Positions 1-21,982 of a stretch of 22,620 nt of DNA are shown here, piece after piece. The position numbers and the translations under genes are program-made. The notes beneath the pieces were generated by a model that was not told the origin of the DNA, searched no databases, and was given only the letters and a program-made list of their open reading frames with translations. Source of the DNA: a virus; IMG/VR virus record IMGVR_UViG_3300031841_000603, positions 1-22,620 of that record. One strand, 5' to 3'. How positions within the stretch are numbered: position 1 is the first letter of the stretch; every line of letters begins with the position of its first letter.

Positions 1-1084
1 CTGCTGTCGATGCGCATGCGTTCAGAGCCGCCAGTAGCAAAAGCTAGTGTGTCCGCAGCTGCTCTAAACATGCCAGTGTTGTCGTCTCCATAAAAAGTAT
101 AGCTAGGGAAAGTATTACTGGCTTGTGCGTTTTGCAAAACAGGATAACCAGTTGCACTATTAACACCAACTGAGTTTGTTAGTGTAGCATTACCACTACC
201 GTCAAGGGTCATACGTGTTGCGGTACCAGCACCTAAAAATAGTTTATCATCCGTGTGGTTATATTGAACATAACCAGCGTATCTGCCTGTTCCTGATGTA
301 GCATCGCCAAAATGAATTGTGTTGTAGCCATTTGTTGCTGCAAGCATTTGTATGATGGTGCTTGCGGTAGATGTGCTGCCTACTTGTAAAGGGCCATATC
401 CAGCGTGTGCCGATGTCCCTAGTAATAGATTACCGCTGCTGTCGATGCGCATGCGTTCTGGATAGGTTCCAGCGCCAAAACCATAGAAAGCAAAAGCATC
501 AACTCCCGCAGGTTGTCCAATACGCCAGTTTGCTACACCAGCTTGGTTTATCGCTAGTTTTGATCCATACGTCCCAGCAGTTGTTGCAAAAGTACCAAGT
601 ATACCATCCGTTGGAAGCCCAGATGCATGAATAGCACTAACTGGCGAACTCGTTCCAATCCCGACATTACCGCTGCTGTCGATGCGCATATACTCCTTAG
701 TATATCCTTCAAAAGCTAAATAGCCATCAGCATTTGCTGTCGTGAATATTTGTATTTTAGTACCGCCAGAGGTATTCCCAGCATTAAAACCAATCCGACC
801 ATTTGTGTGCGTAATTTGCAAAGGGGCAAAAGGCGAACTCGTCCCAATCCCGACCCGTCCACTGCTGTCGATGCGCATGCGTTCTGAGCCATTGGTTTCA
901 AAGTAAGCATTATTGCCTACAGCGCCAATATAAACAGTATCACCACCAGTGTCTTTGAAATTTAAATAAACACCAGTAGAAGAGCCTTCTAAACGGGCAA
1001 CAGTTGTTGAACCATAAACATGAAACTCATGTGCTGGCGAACTCGTCCCGATCCCGACCTGACCAGAGCTGTCGATGCGCATGG
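1..1084 (-). repeat. Dispersed RMRIDSSG / GIGTSSP module repeats in the tail fibre
   Basis: The plus-strand string ctgctgtcgatgcgcat occurs at 1, 436, 673 and 862, with a variant at about 1066, each encoding MRIDSS. At 641, 831 and 1034 it is preceded on the plus strand by a shared tract near ggcgaactcgt, which encodes the GIGTSSP half of the module. Spacing is irregular (about 190 to 435 bases), so these are modules separated by variable domains and not a simple tandem array. Confidence 0.85.
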
Positions 1085-2729
1085 CTTCTGACCAAGAGAT
1101 TGCTGCATCTGCACCGCCTGACGCAGCGGTATACCATACATGCTCTGCATCATTATGGTCATATCGTGCTGCATAGTCTGAGTTAATATATTTCCAACCA
1201 GTGCTTGCCCTGTAAGCATTGCTCGTAAGAGACATAAAGGATGTAGAATCTGTGCCAGAAAGAGCCGCAGCAGCTCCTAGTTGTAAAGGACTAAAGTCTG
1301 GATTAACTCCACCATCTGACCAGCTTTCTAAAGTTACTCCAATTCCGATATTGTCAGCCGTGACAGTGCCAGTTACGTCAATACCTGTGGAGGTGGTGGC
1401 GAGGCGCTGAACCCCTGAATTATATAGCTGTACCGCTGGTGTGCCGCCCGTGTGATTTACAATCAAACCTACGTTTGTGCCTGTAGATAACCGTAAATCA
1501 TTGCCAGAGCTTAACAGATCAAAGCGACCCGTTGATCGAGCATCAAAGTATGTTCCATTCCATTCAATGTAAGCATCGTTGCTATCACCGAAACGCATTC
1601 TATCGCCATCACCAAGATCAATGGTCTGAGCCGTAGCGCTATCTACAGTGATCGTTGTGCCGCTAACCGTTAAGTTACCCTGAATCGTTAGATCCCCGGT
1701 CATGGTATCGCCGGATTTAGATACCTTTGCGGATATCGTAGCAATGTTGGATGCAACAGTATTTACATCAGCAATGTTAGTCGCAACCGTTCCAATATCT
1801 GTGCCATCGGCAGCGACAGTTGTAACATCGCTACTAATCCCGGCCACTGTCGTAACATCAGAGCTAATCCCAGCAACAGTCGTAACATTTGCAGATACAC
1901 CAGCTACCGTTGTGATGTTAGAGTTATTACCCGCAACAGTGTTAATGTTAGTGGTATTACCCGCCACCGTTGTGATGTTGCTATCAATCCCAGCAACCGT
2001 ATTTACGTTTGATATGTTAGTCGCAACCGTTCCAATATCTGCCTCATCCGCAACCACGCTTGCAATGTTGGATGTAATACCAGCAACCGTTGTGACGTTC
2101 GAGCTGATCCCCGCAACAGTGGTTACGTTCGTTGAAATCCCGGCCACAGTTTGAATTGCATCCGTTGCATCTGTCCCGTCCTCAATATCAGCAAGCGTAG
2201 CAATATCCGCTGTGATCGATGCCAGTGAAGAAACATCCGCGATGGTTGGGCCAACCTCTGGATCACCAGATGTCGCATTGAATCCCAAGACTGTTCCTTT
2301 GCGGTTGTCTTTTGTCGGTAACTCGAGATCTGTGTAAACATCCCCAGGGTTTGTTTTGATTGTGCGCCCAACCTTCTCGTCAAGCTGTTGAGTCATAATC
2401 ACCAGGCTATCAAGCTGTTCATTCAAGCTCGATGCCAGGAGATCCCCGGCTGTTACAAAGTCTGTTGTCCTGGATAAATCCCGACCACCGATGATTGTCA
2501 GAACGTCAGAGGAAATGAGAGCTTGTCCCGCATCCAATGTAATCGATCCCGTGCCGTTCGCGTTTGTCGTAACGGTGTAATGTGTTGTGAGCGTGAGTAG
2601 TGTGGTGTTTTTATAAACAGCAATATCCGCATCAGCGAGGATGTTGAACGTAAAGGCAAACGGCCCAGTTCCGGTATTGCCTGTGAACTGAACCCTACGA
2701 GTAACCGGGTTGATTGCGATATCGGCCAT
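1..2729 (-). CDS. Tail fibre protein, 3' end cut by window edge
   Basis: About 909 residues are visible and the frame is open to the left edge, so the C-terminus is missing. The N-terminus (starting MADIAINPVTRR) through about residue 150 reads like a T7-type fibre N-terminal virion-attachment domain, with a phrase like GRDLSRTTDF near residues 82-91. Residues 191-330 are fourteen decapeptide repeats ending in TTV or close variants. They are followed by KSGDTMTGDLTIQGNL, a common fibre-shaft motif, and then by repeated RMRIDSSG...GIGTSSP modules. The start at 2729 has a CGGAG ribosome site seven bases upstream, and the 59-base gap before it follows the last ejection-protein gene. The role would be host receptor binding. 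Many fibres with these modules end in an S74-type intramolecular chaperone, but that part would lie outside the window. Function confidence is high; receptor unknown. Confidence 0.9.
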   Translation of the reverse strand, partial: MADIAINPVTRRVQFTGNTGTGPFAFTFNILADADIAVYKNTTLLTLTTHYTVTTNANGTGSITLDAGQALISSDVLTIIGGRDLSRTTDFVTAGDLLASSLNEQLDSLVIMTQQLDEKVGRTIKTNPGDVYTDLELPTKDNRKGTVLGFNATSGDPEVGPTIADVSSLASITADIATLADIEDGTDATDAIQTVAGISTNVTTVAGISSNVTTVAGITSNIASVVADEADIGTVATNISNVNTVAGIDSNITTVAGNTTNINTVAGNNSNITTVAGVSANVTTVAGISSDVTTVAGISSDVTTVAADGTDIGTVATNIADVNTVASNIATISAKVSKSGDTMTGDLTIQGNLTVSGTTITVDSATAQTIDLGDGDRMRFGDSNDAYIEWNGTYFDARSTGRFDLLSSGNDLRLSTGTNVGLIVNHTGGTPAVQLYNSGVQRLATTSTGIDVTGTVTADNIGIGVTLESWSDGGVNPDFSPLQLGAAAALSGTDSTSFMSLTSNAYRASTGWKYINSDYAARYDHNDAEHVWYTAASGGADAAISWSEAMRIDSSGQVGIGTSSPAHEFHVYGSTTVARLEGSSTGVYLNFKDTGGDTVYIGAVGNNAYFETNGSERMRIDSSGRVGIGTSSPFAPLQITHTNGRIGFNAGNTSGGTKIQIFTTANADGYLAFEGYTKEYMRIDSSGNVGIGTSSPVSAIHASGLPTDGILGTFATTAGTYGSKLAINQAGVANWRIGQPAGVDAFAFYGFGAGTYPERMRIDSSGNLLLGTSAHAGYGPLQVGSTSTASTIIQMLAATNGYNTIHFGDATSGTGRYAGYVQYNHTDDKLFLGAGTATRMTLDGSGNATLTNSVGVNSATGYPVLQNAQASNTFPSYTFYGDDNTGMFRAAADTLAFATGGSERMRIDS
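1740..2159 (-). repeat. Fourteen tandem 30-base (decapeptide) repeats in the tail fibre
   Basis: Translated on the minus strand, residues 191-330 of the fibre fall into fourteen units of exactly ten residues with consensus xGISSNVTTV. Typical units are AGISSNVTTV, AGIDSNITTV and AGNTTNINTV. Two units of DIGTV type (with the following ATNI unit) recur about 80 residues apart, which points to a higher-order duplication. The pattern suggests an extended trimeric shaft of regular pitch. DNA copies are diverged at third positions. Confidence 0.9.
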
Positions 2730-10233: not shown

Positions 10234-12807
10234 CTAATTCCCCACGCTAAGTTTATATTCCAGGCCCAAGACCGTCATGGGGAGCGGAACATTTTGTGTA
10301 ATCGTAATCTGTCCGGTTTTCGTATAGCCAAGCATACCATGCGTCGTTTTTACGCCAGTAAATGGTTGAATTGCTGAATCCAAGACACTTTCGCCAAAGT
10401 TTCTGAATGAAACTTGCTTGTTGTTGATAACAAGATCTTTTGTGTCATTGACGAATGCATCAACCTGAACAATGCGCTTTTGAACGCCCTGGACAGTTCC
10501 AGTGTTTAATCTAGGCTCGACTGGCATTGTCCTTGCCCGGACAGTGTAATCCAAACCCAATACATATGATGTTGTTGAATCTGTAGGCAAATCCATGCGG
10601 CCAGTATGATCCGCAACCGTATCATCATCGATAATACCATCACGAATGTATTTAACAGCTCGATCACGCAAGCCTGACTCAGTAACCGTACCAGATGTTG
10701 ATGTTCCTGTTACGGCACGATCTAAGGTTATATCTGGGTTGAACTTTTGAATATGGTACTCGTGCTTGATATAATCGCTTACCCAAGTTTCCCCTGCCGC
10801 ATAAGCTACCCAGAAAGCCTTTTGAAACTCAAGTATCCGGTTATAAATGTAAACAACATCATTGGTTATAGTAATATTAATAATACTAGAAAAAATTTGT
10901 ATTTGGGTAACTACGCCACTTCCATCAAAAGTTACAACCAAACTACCCGCGCCATAAGATTCCCAGAATGCAGCATCTAAAGAGCCTACCACTTGATTTC
11001 TGCCAAGATCAGCTCTTGGATATGAACCGCCACCAGTATCAACTTGTTCAAGCAGCCAAGCATATACACCACCATCACTTGCATCTTTGACGCCATCAGC
11101 AATATCTTTGATAGCTTTAGCAAGTCCGTCTGTAGTATTCCAATCAATGATAGGTGCTTTGACAGCGGCATAAACCTCCGTGTTTTCTACCGCTACCGCA
11201 ATGAAGTCCCCGTCCGTTGTGAACTTGCTAGGAGATATTACGTTCTGCCCCACCAAAATCGAATAACAGGTCATAGACCCATCATCACCATTTACAACAA
11301 AAACCTTATCGGCCTCGTCTGTTGACGTTGATCGACGTGCTGCAAGATCTATCGGGTTTTTAATTAGGTGGGATGATAGAACAGAAAGCTGTTGGATCTG
11401 ATATGCTCTTGTGTTTGACCCAAACTGAAACGCATTAAGTGATTTACCCTGGCGTTGAACAAAGATCGAAGCACCATTTAAATCCTCAACAGGAACACCT
11501 GGTTTTGATCCTTGGCGCGTTTGTGGCCGTACAAGGAAGGTGGAAGGCGTTACCGGGCTATCCTCTGACTGTATAACCACGAACTCCCCACCAGTAGTGA
11601 AGATCCGCAAGTCAGCCGATGCAACGATGTTTACAATGCTATTGAGCTGATTGGTGTTGATCGTGGCCTCTACGCCCTCATCATCCAATCCGGTGCCTGG
11701 ATCAAAGTTAAAGTAATCTATAACTCGAGATCCCCAGACTGTGTTGGGCCGGGACTTAGATCCGCCAAAGTATAAGCGACCCTCATGGAAAGTTGCTGAT
11801 CGAGGCCACCCCCTGGTGCTAGACCAAACATCCTCATAGCCATGTTCGCTTTCCCATTCCCCAGCGACAACAGGATTGGCATCGAAGAAAGGAACCTCCA
11901 CAACCGCCTTCATAACTGTGGCACTCGAAAACTCAACGTATCTTGCCCGACCAAAAGTGCTTGTGACCTGGGCATATTCACCCACTGCCGATTCTGCAAA
12001 GGCTTCTACCTTGTATCCGGTTGTATTGTCTGGCTGTGTATCCCAGGCTGGGTAAACCGTTAGTACCTTCGTTGACGCCACATAATCCTCAACATGGCGC
12101 GTTTGGCCTGATCCAGTGCCGGATGTTAAGGTAATGAACATCCCATTGGGATCATCATCAGATGTGTAGCTTGTCGCTGCTTTGAGGGTAATTGTATCCG
12201 CTCCGCCAGCTTGGGCAGTGCCAGTGTCCGTTGTAACGGCAGATGCAGTAATCGTAATGTTACCATCAACAGCGCTGGGCGTGATTGTAAAGTTTGGTTG
12301 GTGCGTATCAAACGCATAGGCATATTGTGGCAAGTTGGTCAGCGGTAAGTTTTCCAGGGTCCAGCTTGTATCGCTATTGCGCACCAAGCGTTTTGTTTGC
12401 AGATCCTCATGGCAAAGAATAAGCGTATCAACGGCCTGTGTATATTCTAACTCATCGAGCATGGCCGCAGTGATATCTGTAGCGGTAATGTAATCGTTTC
12501 CAGATCCATTTATGTTTGTCTGTAGCGTTCCGCCCTTGAACACATAGATACGACCATTCACAAAGACCAAAAGGTAACTATCAGTAACGCTAAACTCAAA
12601 CGGGATAAGCTTTACCTCTGTAAAGGTTTCTCCCAGGTTATAGATAAATTCTAGGCCATCCCTACGCTTTAGGCCACCTTGTGGCTGCACAATGACATTC
12701 AGTGCCTCCTCGAGGGCGTTCTGATACTGATCGAGATCTGTACGCGCTCTAAGTAGTGGGTCCAGTTCACCAACTGAGAAGTTTGTTTGAAACTGTGTAA
12801 CGCGCAT
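10234..12807 (-). CDS. Tail tubular protein B (nozzle), gp12-like, with an insertion
   Basis: The 857-residue protein opens with the family signature (FQTNFSVGELDPLLRARTDL, then EALNVIVQPQGGLKRRDG). It goes on with the expected beta-rich body, including GWPRSATFHEGRLYFGGS and an RTRQGS-like loop region around 420-445. This is the nozzle at the tip of the short tail. Between the strand ending EVYAAVKAP (about residue 549) and YHIQKFNPDITLDRAV (from about 683), family members normally continue directly. Here roughly 130 extra residues are present. The start is immediately adjacent to the TAA of tail tubular protein A, so translation of the two is probably coupled. Confidence 0.92.
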   Translation of the reverse strand: MRVTQFQTNFSVGELDPLLRARTDLDQYQNALEEALNVIVQPQGGLKRRDGLEFIYNLGETFTEVKLIPFEFSVTDSYLLVFVNGRIYVFKGGTLQTNINGSGNDYITATDITAAMLDELEYTQAVDTLILCHEDLQTKRLVRNSDTSWTLENLPLTNLPQYAYAFDTHQPNFTITPSAVDGNITITASAVTTDTGTAQAGGADTITLKAATSYTSDDDPNGMFITLTSGTGSGQTRHVEDYVASTKVLTVYPAWDTQPDNTTGYKVEAFAESAVGEYAQVTSTFGRARYVEFSSATVMKAVVEVPFFDANPVVAGEWESEHGYEDVWSSTRGWPRSATFHEGRLYFGGSKSRPNTVWGSRVIDYFNFDPGTGLDDEGVEATINTNQLNSIVNIVASADLRIFTTGGEFVVIQSEDSPVTPSTFLVRPQTRQGSKPGVPVEDLNGASIFVQRQGKSLNAFQFGSNTRAYQIQQLSVLSSHLIKNPIDLAARRSTSTDEADKVFVVNGDDGSMTCYSILVGQNVISPSKFTTDGDFIAVAVENTEVYAAVKAPIIDWNTTDGLAKAIKDIADGVKDASDGGVYAWLLEQVDTGGGSYPRADLGRNQVVGSLDAAFWESYGAGSLVVTFDGSGVVTQIQIFSSIINITITNDVVYIYNRILEFQKAFWVAYAAGETWVSDYIKHEYHIQKFNPDITLDRAVTGTSTSGTVTESGLRDRAVKYIRDGIIDDDTVADHTGRMDLPTDSTTSYVLGLDYTVRARTMPVEPRLNTGTVQGVQKRIVQVDAFVNDTKDLVINNKQVSFRNFGESVLDSAIQPFTGVKTTHGMLGYTKTGQITITQNVPLPMTVLGLEYKLSVGN

Positions 12808-18472: not shown

Positions 18473-18955
18473 CTACTTAAACCTCGCCATAGAATAATAG
18501 TCGGCCCCCTCTGGGCCAAACTTTCTTAATTTGCACTCTACCTCAAAATATAGTGCTTTGGCAAACCTTAACGCTACCATATGTTGATCTTTTACAAATA
18601 TCTGCATCCTAGTGATACCGTAGTTGTCAAATGCATCCTGTAGTGTAGCCCTTGCACCCACCAAAGTAGTACGCGCATGATTGTCTAGTCCTTCGCCAGG
18701 AATAAACCAGCATTCGACTAGGTGCGGCCATATCTGTCGCAGCCCATAACAGGCAACAATCTTACCCCTGCCGATTGCGGTGAAAGACCATCCAGGCTCA
18801 GAAATGTCGTAGATATAATCCCGATACCCCGAAATCACACGTTCATACTCCTGTTCGTGCGGCCCAAGCTTAATTAGATGCAAATGCTCTCGCTGCAACG
18901 GCACAATGTGTTCATCTGGCCGCATCTTGAACGTAGGAATCTGTATGAGTGACAT
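18473..18955 (-). CDS. GNAT-like protein, possibly related to T7 gp13
   Basis: The 160-residue product shows the order of elements of a GNAT acetyltransferase fold: an N-terminal strand-helix, a central WSFTAIGRGKIVACYGL strand pair, a stretch around HARTTLVGARATLQDAF where the CoA loop would lie, and a C-terminal VKDQHMVALRFAKALYFEVE helix-strand. It resembles the family that includes T7 gp13, a protein used in virion morphogenesis. The usual acetyl-CoA Q/RxxGxG/A loop is not clearly conserved, so enzymatic activity is uncertain. It starts on the last base of the terminase stop codon. Confidence 0.65.
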   Translation of the reverse strand: MSLIQIPTFKMRPDEHIVPLQREHLHLIKLGPHEQEYERVISGYRDYIYDISEPGWSFTAIGRGKIVACYGLRQIWPHLVECWFIPGEGLDNHARTTLVGARATLQDAFDNYGITRMQIFVKDQHMVALRFAKALYFEVECKLRKFGPEGADYYSMARFK

Positions 18956-20478
18956 CAGAATATATTAAAATCTGTATTTGCAGTCATGGCCGGAGCCTGG
19001 GCAAATCCGCTGCCGTAAGTTCCCCGGCGCAATCGACGTTGTTCTCCGCCGCCCAGCATAAGATATCCGAACGCATCCCCGCAGTGTGAGTGTTCGTTCT
19101 TAACTGGCGCGTCCTTGAACCGTTCTTGCCCAGCGCCCAGGGATTGCCTCTTGAAGAAGTAGCCACCGCTCAGAGATTTACGCAGACGAATACACTTTTT
19201 ATCGACCATCAGCCCAGGTTTCGAGTTTACCAGGCGTGACATCGGCCCCGCGCCAGCTTCCCGGCGTACCTGGAAGGCGTTACTTTCTGTCGGTTGTGCC
19301 TTGAAACCAATGGATCGAAGGTGATCGAAGGCTGTAACCTCATAGATCTCGTCGCGTTTATTACCCGCAGGGTCGCCCCAGATCATTATTTCATGCTTAG
19401 AATATCGCTCCGCGATCCTGCCGAGAAGCTCTTGGCCAAATCTTTCCAGGCCCATATCGAACGTCACAAGTTCATCGATGATCCGCCAAGATCCCGCCGT
19501 TGTGCGCTGCCCAAAGATCGCAGCCGGGGTTAAACCAAAGTCAACACCGATCTGTATTGGATAATATGGATCTACCTCGACATCCCCAGACATAAGCTCA
19601 TCATCATACTCTGGCCATACGGGACGCCCCTCTTGGACAAATGTGTACATGCCTTGCGCATAACACCTGATCCAATCGGCATTCTTACCACCGAGTAGCT
19701 GTTGATAGTATCCAGGCGGGAGATTGTTGCTGTTTTCCGCGTTGGGATTAACTTGCCACCATTTACCACCAGAGAATACAAATCCTTGCGCATCAGGGTT
19801 CTCCTTTGGGATATCTTCTTTCTTGGGAAGTATGACACCGCCAGGCTGTCGAAAGAATGACCAAGCAAACTTGCCCGTGATCGGGTTCTTTTCTGCAAGC
19901 TCATGCCACCAGTGATCACTGTCCGGCGGGTTCGTATCCATCCAGATCCCGTACCAGGTAGGACCGCCATCGGATTTCGTAGGATATCGCCCGACCCGGT
20001 GCGTCAATCCATCGATCACGGCCTTGGGAAGCTCTCGAGCCTCGTTCACCCAGGCACCCGTAAGTTCCAGGGACAACAGTTTCCGCACATCTTGCGGCGA
20101 AGAAAGCGCCATAAAGATAACTTCACAATCAATCCCAGGGATATCGCCCCGCGTAGGAATACGAATGTGGTGGGAAATCGGCGGCTGCCAGCGCATTGAT
20201 CCCCAGGTATCTTCGGGAAATAGCTCTTGCCAGGTCTTAATGGTGGTCGTGCGCAGCTCGGGATAAGTATTACGAACGATAACAAAGCGGGAATAGCGGA
20301 TACCGTCGCGCGGGCTAGGTCGTTGCCTCACTGCCCTAAGCATTATCTCGGCTGCACAGCCATAGGACTTACCCGAACCAACTGGACCCATCAACCCCCT
20401 AACGAAGCTATCGTCATGTAAAAACTTCCAAACAGTCGGACTGTTCTCGAAATTCAAATCAAGACTTGGAATATCCAT
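18955..20478 (-). CDS. terL: Terminase large subunit
   Basis: This 507-residue protein is the packaging motor ATPase and nuclease. Visible motifs: Walker A GPVGSGKS at 31-38; Walker B-like region LTGAWVNEARE at 140-149 with Glu146 as likely catalytic base; TNPP at 182-185 in the coupling-motif position. The RNase H-like nuclease acids are Asp313 (GVDFG), Asp369 (GDPAG) and Asp468 (HCGDAFGY). All key residues appear intact. The first 20 bases overlap the upstream transporter gene. It is separated from the small subunit by two genes of a probable base-modification cassette, which is unusual since terS and terL are normally adjacent. Confidence 0.96.
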   Translation of the reverse strand: MDIPSLDLNFENSPTVWKFLHDDSFVRGLMGPVGSGKSYGCAAEIMLRAVRQRPSPRDGIRYSRFVIVRNTYPELRTTTIKTWQELFPEDTWGSMRWQPPISHHIRIPTRGDIPGIDCEVIFMALSSPQDVRKLLSLELTGAWVNEARELPKAVIDGLTHRVGRYPTKSDGGPTWYGIWMDTNPPDSDHWWHELAEKNPITGKFAWSFFRQPGGVILPKKEDIPKENPDAQGFVFSGGKWWQVNPNAENSNNLPPGYYQQLLGGKNADWIRCYAQGMYTFVQEGRPVWPEYDDELMSGDVEVDPYYPIQIGVDFGLTPAAIFGQRTTAGSWRIIDELVTFDMGLERFGQELLGRIAERYSKHEIMIWGDPAGNKRDEIYEVTAFDHLRSIGFKAQPTESNAFQVRREAGAGPMSRLVNSKPGLMVDKKCIRLRKSLSGGYFFKRQSLGAGQERFKDAPVKNEHSHCGDAFGYLMLGGGEQRRLRRGTYGSGFAQAPAMTANTDFNIF

Positions 20479-21028
20479 TTTTCATCACCCAAAGAATGCC
20501 AGCGGCCAAGATGCTGATTGCAAGCTTACCAAATATTTGCCCTTCGATATAGGCCAGAGATCCAAACGCAATGTAAAGAAACACTACGCTATCAAATATT
20601 GCCCCAACTAATCCTGAAACTGCTATCGCTAATTCCCGGCTTTTCTGTCGAACTTTTGTATATGCAAAGAAATCCACAAGTTCCGACACTCCAAACGCTA
20701 ATATGCTTGCAATCGCAATGAACGGGTCTGCCAATAAGTAGGACAGCACCGCGCCAATTAAAATTGCAAACAAAGACCACTTGGTTCCGAGGTGTTCTTG
20801 AACCTGATCGCGCAAAACAAGTGCTGCACCCACCATCAATACGCCGCTCGGTGCAGTCATTCCAAACCCAACAGGGATCATGCAAGGCCCATCAGGAATA
20901 CAAAACGTCCCAATATTCCCGATCATCCAGTTTGCTAGCGGTATCGTTGCGATATATCCACCTAGATACGCCCAGGGCGTCAGCCCACCATTTCCAACAA
21001 CGGTTGTTGCTTTAGTTTTTGTAACCAT
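20459..21028 (-). CDS. yhhQ: VUT/YhhQ-family queuosine-precursor transporter
   Basis: The 189-residue integral membrane protein has about six hydrophobic segments: about 18-37, 51-72, 84-100, 102-122, 133-157 and 164-182. Family hallmarks include APSGVLMVGAALVLRDQVQ (59-77), GVSELVDFFAYT (113-124) and GLVGAIFDSVVFL (139-151). Members of the VUT (DUF165) family, such as E. coli YhhQ, import the 7-deazaguanine precursors preQ0 and preQ1. This copy resembles the shorter version of the family with TFCIPDGPCMIPV near residues 41-53. It overlaps the dpdA-like gene by 49 bases and terL by 20. It would act in the host inner membrane to supply modified base for the neighbouring enzyme. The family assignment is firm; the exact substrate is inferred. 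Confidence 0.9.
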   Translation of the reverse strand: MVTKTKATTVVGNGGLTPWAYLGGYIATIPLANWMIGNIGTFCIPDGPCMIPVGFGMTAPSGVLMVGAALVLRDQVQEHLGTKWSLFAILIGAVLSYLLADPFIAIASILAFGVSELVDFFAYTKVRQKSRELAIAVSGLVGAIFDSVVFLYIAFGSLAYIEGQIFGKLAISILAAGILWVMKNGYSKS

Positions 21029-21585
21029 TCTTCTATCTTTCCCTTCCTGTTATCCGGCTCAAATGCCAGATAGGTTCCATCGACGCTATCGCATCCTATG
21101 GCCGCTGCCAATCTCATTCGTTTAAATGAGTTTACACGGCCCATGTGGACCCACTTCCCACGCTTTTTTGCTTCAGAAGCTATATCCGCAGCAATAGGTC
21201 CAAGCTTCCATTCCGTAGACCCACCAATAAATATCGCATCCAATTCATCCCAGCGAATTTGATCCGGCGTTTCTCCGTCCTGAATTACAAACGCAGCCTT
21301 AAATCCAAGCTCCCGTATCTTTGGAAGCATAGGATAACTGCGGTCTCTCGTTTTTTCAGCATCCCCAACAACGTCAGGCGCAGCCGCAAACAGACAAGAT
21401 CCTCGATCAAGCTTATCCAACCATGCTAGATAACCCTCATCGCTATACTTTTCCGATTGAACAAAACACCCGTTATCTGCCGCGAATAGGCTATGACCTC
21501 GCAAAGATTGCTTGCCAGCATTAAAACTTAGCATCACACCCAAGCTATCAGTGCATTTAACCTTTTTCCCGCTCAGGTAAATCAT
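20980..21585 (-). CDS. dpdA: DpdA-like 7-deazaguanine transglycosylase (DNA base exchange)
   Basis: This 201-residue protein aligns by motif to tRNA-guanine transglycosylases. D37-N-G-C-F41 matches the TGT DSGGF loop (general acid/base Asp). P70-D71...D75 sits where the substrate-recognition Asp lies, VIQDG (100-104) matches the VQGG stretch, and IGGS (120-123) matches the GG loop. HMGR (147-150) matches HLLG, and CDSVDGT (165-171) carries the nucleophile Asp of the FDCVLPTR motif. Cysteines are only at 11, 40, 64 and 165, so the C-terminal zinc site of tRNA enzymes is absent. That, and the small size, favour a phage DpdA that swaps guanine in DNA for a 7-deazaguanine. Its GAGG ribosome site lies six bases upstream, inside terS, which it overlaps by 29 bases. 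Confidence 0.82.
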   Translation of the reverse strand: MIYLSGKKVKCTDSLGVMLSFNAGKQSLRGHSLFAADNGCFVQSEKYSDEGYLAWLDKLDRGSCLFAAAPDVVGDAEKTRDRSYPMLPKIRELGFKAAFVIQDGETPDQIRWDELDAIFIGGSTEWKLGPIAADIASEAKKRGKWVHMGRVNSFKRMRLAAAIGCDSVDGTYLAFEPDNRKGKIEEWLQKLKQQPLLEMVG

Positions 21586-21982
21586 CTACCACCTCGGCAT
21601 ATTCTGTGGTTGCCGGACCCTTCATGTTAATCCCAACGATTGAGGGCTTATCGCTTTCCTTCTCTGGATTATCCAGAAACCCAGCCGCCTTAGCCAAGAC
21701 ACGCAACACCGCAACCTTATCATGCAACTCTATCGCAACCCGGCCATCCGGCATTGGCGTGATCTTCTTGATCGCCCTCAATGCATAATCCGGGATATCT
21801 TCCTGTTTCTTCATCGTACCATCAAGATTCATTATCTCAGTGATCGATGTGGTCCCAAGAGCTATTAGCTCCTGGGCAACGGCTTCCTTGTGGTTCTCTA
21901 ATGTCTCACTCGTCTTTAATCGACGCTGCGCAACACGGATGCCACCAAAGCGGCCAATCGGTGTTTGCCTGGTTCGAGCCAT
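21557..21982 (-). CDS. terS: Terminase small subunit
   Basis: The 141-residue protein has a basic N-terminus (MARTRQTPIGRFGGIRVAQR), a helical middle (residues 25-60), a short beta hairpin (PMPDGRVAIELHD) and the family phrase HDKVAVLRVLAKAAGFLDN at about 87-105, then a disordered acidic end. The phrase resembles that of small terminase subunits, which recognise the packaging site and feed DNA to the large subunit. The ATG overlaps the upstream stop by one base (TAATG). The last 29 bases are shared with the dpdA-like gene. Confidence 0.8.
   Translation of the reverse strand: MARTRQTPIGRFGGIRVAQRRLKTSETLENHKEAVAQELIALGTTSITEIMNLDGTMKKQEDIPDYALRAIKKITPMPDGRVAIELHDKVAVLRVLAKAAGFLDNPEKESDKPSIVGINMKGPATTEYAEVVDDLPEREKG

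Follow-up and report, generated by a model that had tools for sequence, protein, structure and literature searches.

The analysed window is the 22,620-base virus record IMGVR_UViG_3300031841_000603, a genome fragment of a short-tailed phage. On its minus strand it carries, in this order, an ssb-like gene, the small terminase gene terS, a gene encoding a 201-aa enzyme, a gene encoding a 189-aa importer and the large terminase gene terL (Table 1). The enzyme and importer reading frames had been described in the original prediction, and their presence between terS and terL is confirmed by the ORF coordinates and by the Pfam and PHROG matches of the flanking genes. The successive frames from terS to terL overlap by 29, 49 and 20 nt. 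The overlap between the enzyme and importer genes is found at the same length in the related records L002–L008, and translational coupling of the two genes is possible. At the other end of the window, a tail-fibre-like frame with many tandem 'TVAGI' repeats (positions 3-2729, minus strand) runs off the window end.

Table 1. Genes and features of the terS–terL slot in the window
Feature	Position	Strand	Evidence
Small terminase gene terS, flanking the slot upstream	21557..21982	-	Pfam Terminase_2 6e-6; 49% identity to MEP301 terS
Predicted DpdA-like transglycosylase, 201 aa (S family, PHROG 15826)	20980..21585	-	PHROG 2e-60; structural model; profile comparison; invariant residues
Overlap of the enzyme and importer reading frames, 49 nt	20980..21028	-	ORF coordinates
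Putative VUT/YhhQ-type importer, 189 aa (PF02592, PHROG 4899)	20459..21028	-	Pfam; six-helix model
Large terminase gene terL, flanking the slot downstream	18955..20478	-	PHROG terL 6.5e-26; 67% identity to MEP301 terL

The closest isolate is MEP301, a phage of OM43 (Methylophilales), which shares the packaging and virion genes and their order with the window; its major capsid protein is 62% identical. Three small ORFs of unknown function replace the enzyme and importer genes between terS and terL of MEP301. The terS–enzyme–importer–terL arrangement is kept in seven IMG/VR relatives (L002–L008), one of which is a 29.5-kb record. Across these relatives the enzyme shows 95-98% identity and the ssb-like protein 53-91%. 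The dN/dS values, which are slightly biased by the gene overlaps, are 0.02-0.07 in the enzyme gene and 0.05-0.15 in the importer gene. The values for terL and the major capsid gene lie in a like range, and both proteins are therefore regarded as being under purifying selection. A PAPS-reductase-like gene is located between the ssb-like gene and terS in some relatives (L002:6648-7487 and L162:1045-1884; Pfam 6e-7 and 1e-8) and is missing in others such as L003, which marks a second cargo site beside the packaging genes.

Assignment of the enzyme with curated models failed. It has no match in Pfam or NCBIfam, and none of its scores exceeds the curated DpdA/TGT cut-offs (PF23859, PF01702, NCBIfam). 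Its PHROG family is of unknown function, and no TGT was retrieved when PDB sequences were searched with a sequence profile. The link to DpdA was therefore made through profile-profile comparison and fold. The family of the window enzyme (S) matches the 9g-type phage DpdA with an E value of 2.7e-7 and a family of 226-aa proteins (T) with 1.9e-6, while the importer, included as a decoy, was negative. The T family itself matches the 9g-type DpdA with an E value of 1.1e-13 and is placed in PHROG 887 alongside the Seuratvirus DpdA. The structural model of the window enzyme (pLDDT 92, pTM 0.89) contains eight strands, as in a complete TIM barrel. When the PDB was searched by fold with this model, the matches included tRNA-guanine transglycosylases (E about 1e-4) and the DpdA structure 7ui4 (E 2e-4, TM score 0.50); the top-ranking one was ribulose-phosphate epimerase, a barrel of generic type. 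In a search of viral models, the highest-scoring hit with a name was the classical DpdA from phage Sonali, at E 1e-5.

The TGT/DpdA active-site motifs reported in the original prediction are present, and they do not vary among 71 aligned relatives, in which D37, P70, D71, Q102, G122, H147, R150, N152, D169 and G170 are invariant. The residues D37, D71, H147 and D169 align with residues of the 9g-type DpdA (D169 by MAFFT alignment), H147 with a histidine that may correspond to the conserved one specific to DpdA (H196 of the reference enzyme). The zinc site of TGT is missing from the enzyme sequence. Members of the family with 49-53% identity to the window enzyme (GreaseLightnin 55, Aoka 40 and Sonali 81) are already named 'DpdA-like tRNA-guanine transglycosylase' by SEA-PHAGES, a function given by annotation only. 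As judged by profile comparison and predicted fold, the window enzyme is a distant and smaller relative of DpdA, DpdA-like but outside the curated DpdA families. With the 9g/Seuratvirus DpdA, which is accompanied by a preQ0/G+ pathway, it shares the predicted TGT-superfamily barrel, the aligned catalytic aspartates and an aligned histidine, the location in phage genomes and the neighbourhood of DNA-modification genes. It differs from this protein of about 300 aa in its size, in the lack of accompanying folE, queD, queE and queC genes, in its position outside the curated models and in its linkage to an importer. Distant relatives of the enzyme are also encoded in 142 Pseudomonas plasmid records; no importer was detected near the relative in plasmid record L035.

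The importer matches the Pfam family Vut_1 (PF02592, COG1738) with 43.8 bits against a cut-off of 27.2 (E 4.5e-11). Its model (pLDDT 91) has low confidence in the first approximately 15 residues, which lie inside the overlap with the enzyme gene. No solved structure matches the model significantly, and the nearest are S-components of vitamin transporters. The importer scores below the NCBI equivalog cut-off for queuosine precursor transporters (TIGR00697; 39.3 versus 50.95 bits), as do its relatives. By its sequence the protein belongs to the VUT/YhhQ family and is not a canonical YhhQ, and transport of preQ0, preQ1 or a close relative is its putative role. The DpdA-like and YhhQ/VUT-type identities originally proposed hold, but neither protein is canonical.

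To what extent the two genes belong together is evident from their distribution. Sampling of IMG/VR by the importer alone yielded 80 loci, which fall into 26 clusters at 80% identity. In 25 of them a transglycosylase-like gene adjoins the importer gene, namely a T-type gene in 19, an S-type gene as in the window in five and a gene of the Pfam DpdA family in one. All 25 neighbours are on the same strand as the importer, with gaps of -210 to +304 nt, and the only cluster without such a neighbour starts at the edge of its contig. Of the other genuine neighbours, the most frequent is found in only 5 of the 26 clusters; commoner antisense ORFs were discounted as shadows of the importer and enzyme genes. 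This difference indicates that the pairing is not due to chance. In the reverse direction, an importer lies within 1.5 kb of the enzyme in 41 of 61 S clusters and in 22 of 44 T clusters. The enzyme precedes the importer in the window and in L009, and the order is reversed in L010, ReqiPine5, Aoka and GreaseLightnin, as well as on a Streptomyces plasmid. In Aoka and GreaseLightnin, where the genome position also differs from that in the window, the importer is annotated as 'hypothetical' or 'membrane protein'. A VUT protein is paired with a T-type enzyme in the phages Pam5 and RHph_N3_2 and with a Pfam-DpdA protein in phiLM21.

The exchange of one enzyme type for another can be seen within a single slot. 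The records L162, L171 and L173 are relatives of the window phage (terL 81%; portal 69-72% where covered), and their terS–terL slot contains the importer together with a T-type enzyme, not an S-type one. In L055 (terL 63%), the importer and an S-type enzyme are located upstream of ssb–terS–terL, and the enzyme gene is directly followed by a Mom-family DNA-modification gene (L055:10613-11311; Pfam Mom 1e-38). These layouts indicate that the enzyme is exchangeable while the importer stays, and that the position of the pair is not fixed. The view of the importer and the DpdA-like transglycosylase as one unit, already put forward from the window sequence, gains strength from the near-constant adjacency, the involvement of three enzyme families and the occurrence of two of them in the same slot. 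Three findings appear to be new relative to the literature consulted, although an earlier description of part of this is possible: the near-obligate adjacency across three enzyme families, the missing QueD in importer-bearing members of these lineages, and the replacement of one enzyme by another within a slot.

Phage DpdA is known to insert preQ0 into DNA, and YhhQ to transport preQ0 (PMC6884629); inactivation of phage DpdA removes the modification. We propose that the two genes probably form an 'import and insert' cassette. Placed in the inner membrane of the host, the VUT protein would take up a 7-deazaguanine as the free base (preQ0, preQ1 or a closely related compound). The TIM-barrel enzyme would exchange selected guanines of the phage DNA for the imported base, so that the phage would need no encoded synthesis pathway, and the modified DNA would resist some restriction enzymes. 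The Mom-family gene next to the pair in L055 and the T-type enzyme found with the importer in the slot of the sister phages speak for this function. So do the near-constant adjacency of the two genes, the resemblance of the enzyme to DpdA in fold and profile, the purifying selection on both genes and, as described below, the absence of synthesis genes and the scarcity of TGT in host genomes with the pair. Against it count the position of the enzyme beyond the curated DpdA/TGT models, the generic TIM barrel as its best fold match and the occurrence of the importer together with a complete pathway in EC151 and Seuratvirus (PMC8310023). The recurrence of an importer with a base-exchange enzyme in many unrelated phages looks like a portable disguise of viral DNA with a scavenged base. 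In its broadest form, this would mean that phages have repeatedly assembled a minimal hypermodification device from an importer and a base-exchange enzyme drawn from three or more distantly related types, with the enzyme swappable in one slot while the importer stays and the base scavenged from other organisms, and that the window enzyme represents a large, so far unrecognised group of DNA base-exchange enzymes of about 200 aa. We consider this generalisation about evenly balanced between right and wrong.

Vid5 was the first phage for which a preQ0/preQ1 transporter and salvage were suggested (PMC6266253). The salvage proposals date from 2018-2019, and no demonstration was found in the literature. 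Vid5 and EC151 combine a VUT importer with a DpdA gene in one genome, as the window phage does with its DpdA-like gene. In these two phages the synthesis pathway is present as well, completely or in part, whereas only the importer and the enzyme are seen in the window. The DpdA-only phages (group 3 of Hutinet et al. 2019, e.g. Orion and 7-11) resemble the window phage in having a transglycosylase without synthesis genes. Uptake was suggested by Hutinet et al. 2019 as one source of the base for these phages; a trace of dADG was detected in 7-11 but no modification in Orion. In that study the importer was not correlated with any group, whereas it is tightly paired with the enzyme in the present IMG/VR sampling. 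If the proposed function is true, the armour of phage DNA can hinge on what neighbouring microbes release, and restriction resistance becomes a condition-dependent, community-level trait. It would also explain the source of the base in many phages with a lone DpdA-like gene, assign a function to PHROG 15826 and PHROG 4899, and provide unusually small enzymes with which DNA bases could be exchanged. The question is directly testable, as laboratory mycobacteriophages carry the pair and their host is reported to lack the whole pathway.

The absence of preQ0 synthesis genes noted in the original prediction is borne out. Searches for folE, queD, queE and queC found none of them in the window or in the near-complete 29.5-kb record of the close relative, for which the 34.8-kb genome of MEP301 serves as a yardstick of size. 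Of 50 viral records taken as a whole, each 25 kb or longer, QueD is encoded in none of the 36 with the importer and in 4 of the 14 without it (p = 0.004). QueC occurs in seven of the 50, three of them importer-positive. In the neighbourhood of the enzyme, que genes were found in 1 of 63 importer-positive and in 10 of 42 importer-negative clusters (p = 0.0004), three of the latter ten resting on the less specific QueE-like matches alone. It might be argued that the DNA is indeed modified, but mainly with the host's own preQ0, and that the importer only supplements this pool, a role suggested for EC151, or retrieves base that has leaked out. The importer of EC151 accompanies a full pathway (PMC8310023), the host of the window phage may make preQ0, and about one third to one half of the enzyme-bearing clusters have neither an importer nor que genes nearby and presumably use host precursor. 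However, importer-positive records lack QueD, and in several host genomes with the pair, TGT is missing and the sole importer is one that scores like the cassette type. Furthermore, the importer almost never occurs without the enzyme, which suggests a needed rather than an optional supply. We regard this explanation as unlikely. An origin of the pair from a chromosomal TGT–VUT pair of the host, as in Nocardia, was set aside, since that pair consists of a full-length TGT and a strongly scoring VUT protein, unlike the cassette.

The cassette enzyme could also act on phage or host tRNA instead of DNA, with the 7-deazaguanine helping late translation. The enzyme family lies within the TGT superfamily, the known TGTs act on tRNA, and neither the fold nor the motifs reveal by themselves which nucleic acid is the target. 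However, the profile relatives of the enzyme are phage DpdA proteins and not tRNA TGTs, and the TGT zinc site is missing. Six of the eight host genomes with enzyme and importer have no TGT above the cut-off, and this speaks against a function in tRNA queuosine formation; a TGT is present in 9 of the 11 with the enzyme alone (p = 0.024, with four Nocardia and two Paenibacillus genomes as a confounder). With a DNA-modification gene of the Mom family also adjoining the pair in L055, a tRNA target is quite improbable.

Insertion of a scavenged 7-deazaguanine is not the only conceivable DNA-base job for the enzyme. It might handle a different base or derivative, serve a second motif or remove a modification, with the importer carrying a related purine. 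Three phages with a classical DpdA and preQ0 synthesis genes, namely Sonali, SHIN8 and R29Z, encode the small enzyme as an additional copy, which implies that its role may differ from that of DpdA. The respective copies are located at L023:4941-5558, L028:4896-5488 and L030:4767-5351, and that of SHIN8 is split into two overlapping ORFs. Some cassettes add QueC and lack QueD, which hints at an imported precursor other than preQ0. In L064–L066 the QueC gene is found between the enzyme and importer genes (at about 10629-11177), and in L198 a single open frame beside the importer matches both the T-type enzyme and QueC (L198:3803-4936). Against such a different job stand the alignment and invariance of the DpdA catalytic positions and the 9g-type enzyme in the same slot of the sister phages, which suggests the same job. 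We consider a function of this kind very improbable.

The originally suggested link of modification to late DNA or packaging is scarcely credible, since the position of the pair varies. Although it is located between terS and terL in the clade of the window and likewise near TerL in ReqiPine5, L010, Aoka and GreaseLightnin carry it, in reverse order, among early or replication genes, in L055 it lies ahead of ssb–terS–terL, and other small ORFs fill the slot in MEP301. The record L010, which encodes both importer and enzyme, also carries a Mom-family gene (L010:1235-1870; Pfam Mom 2e-51).
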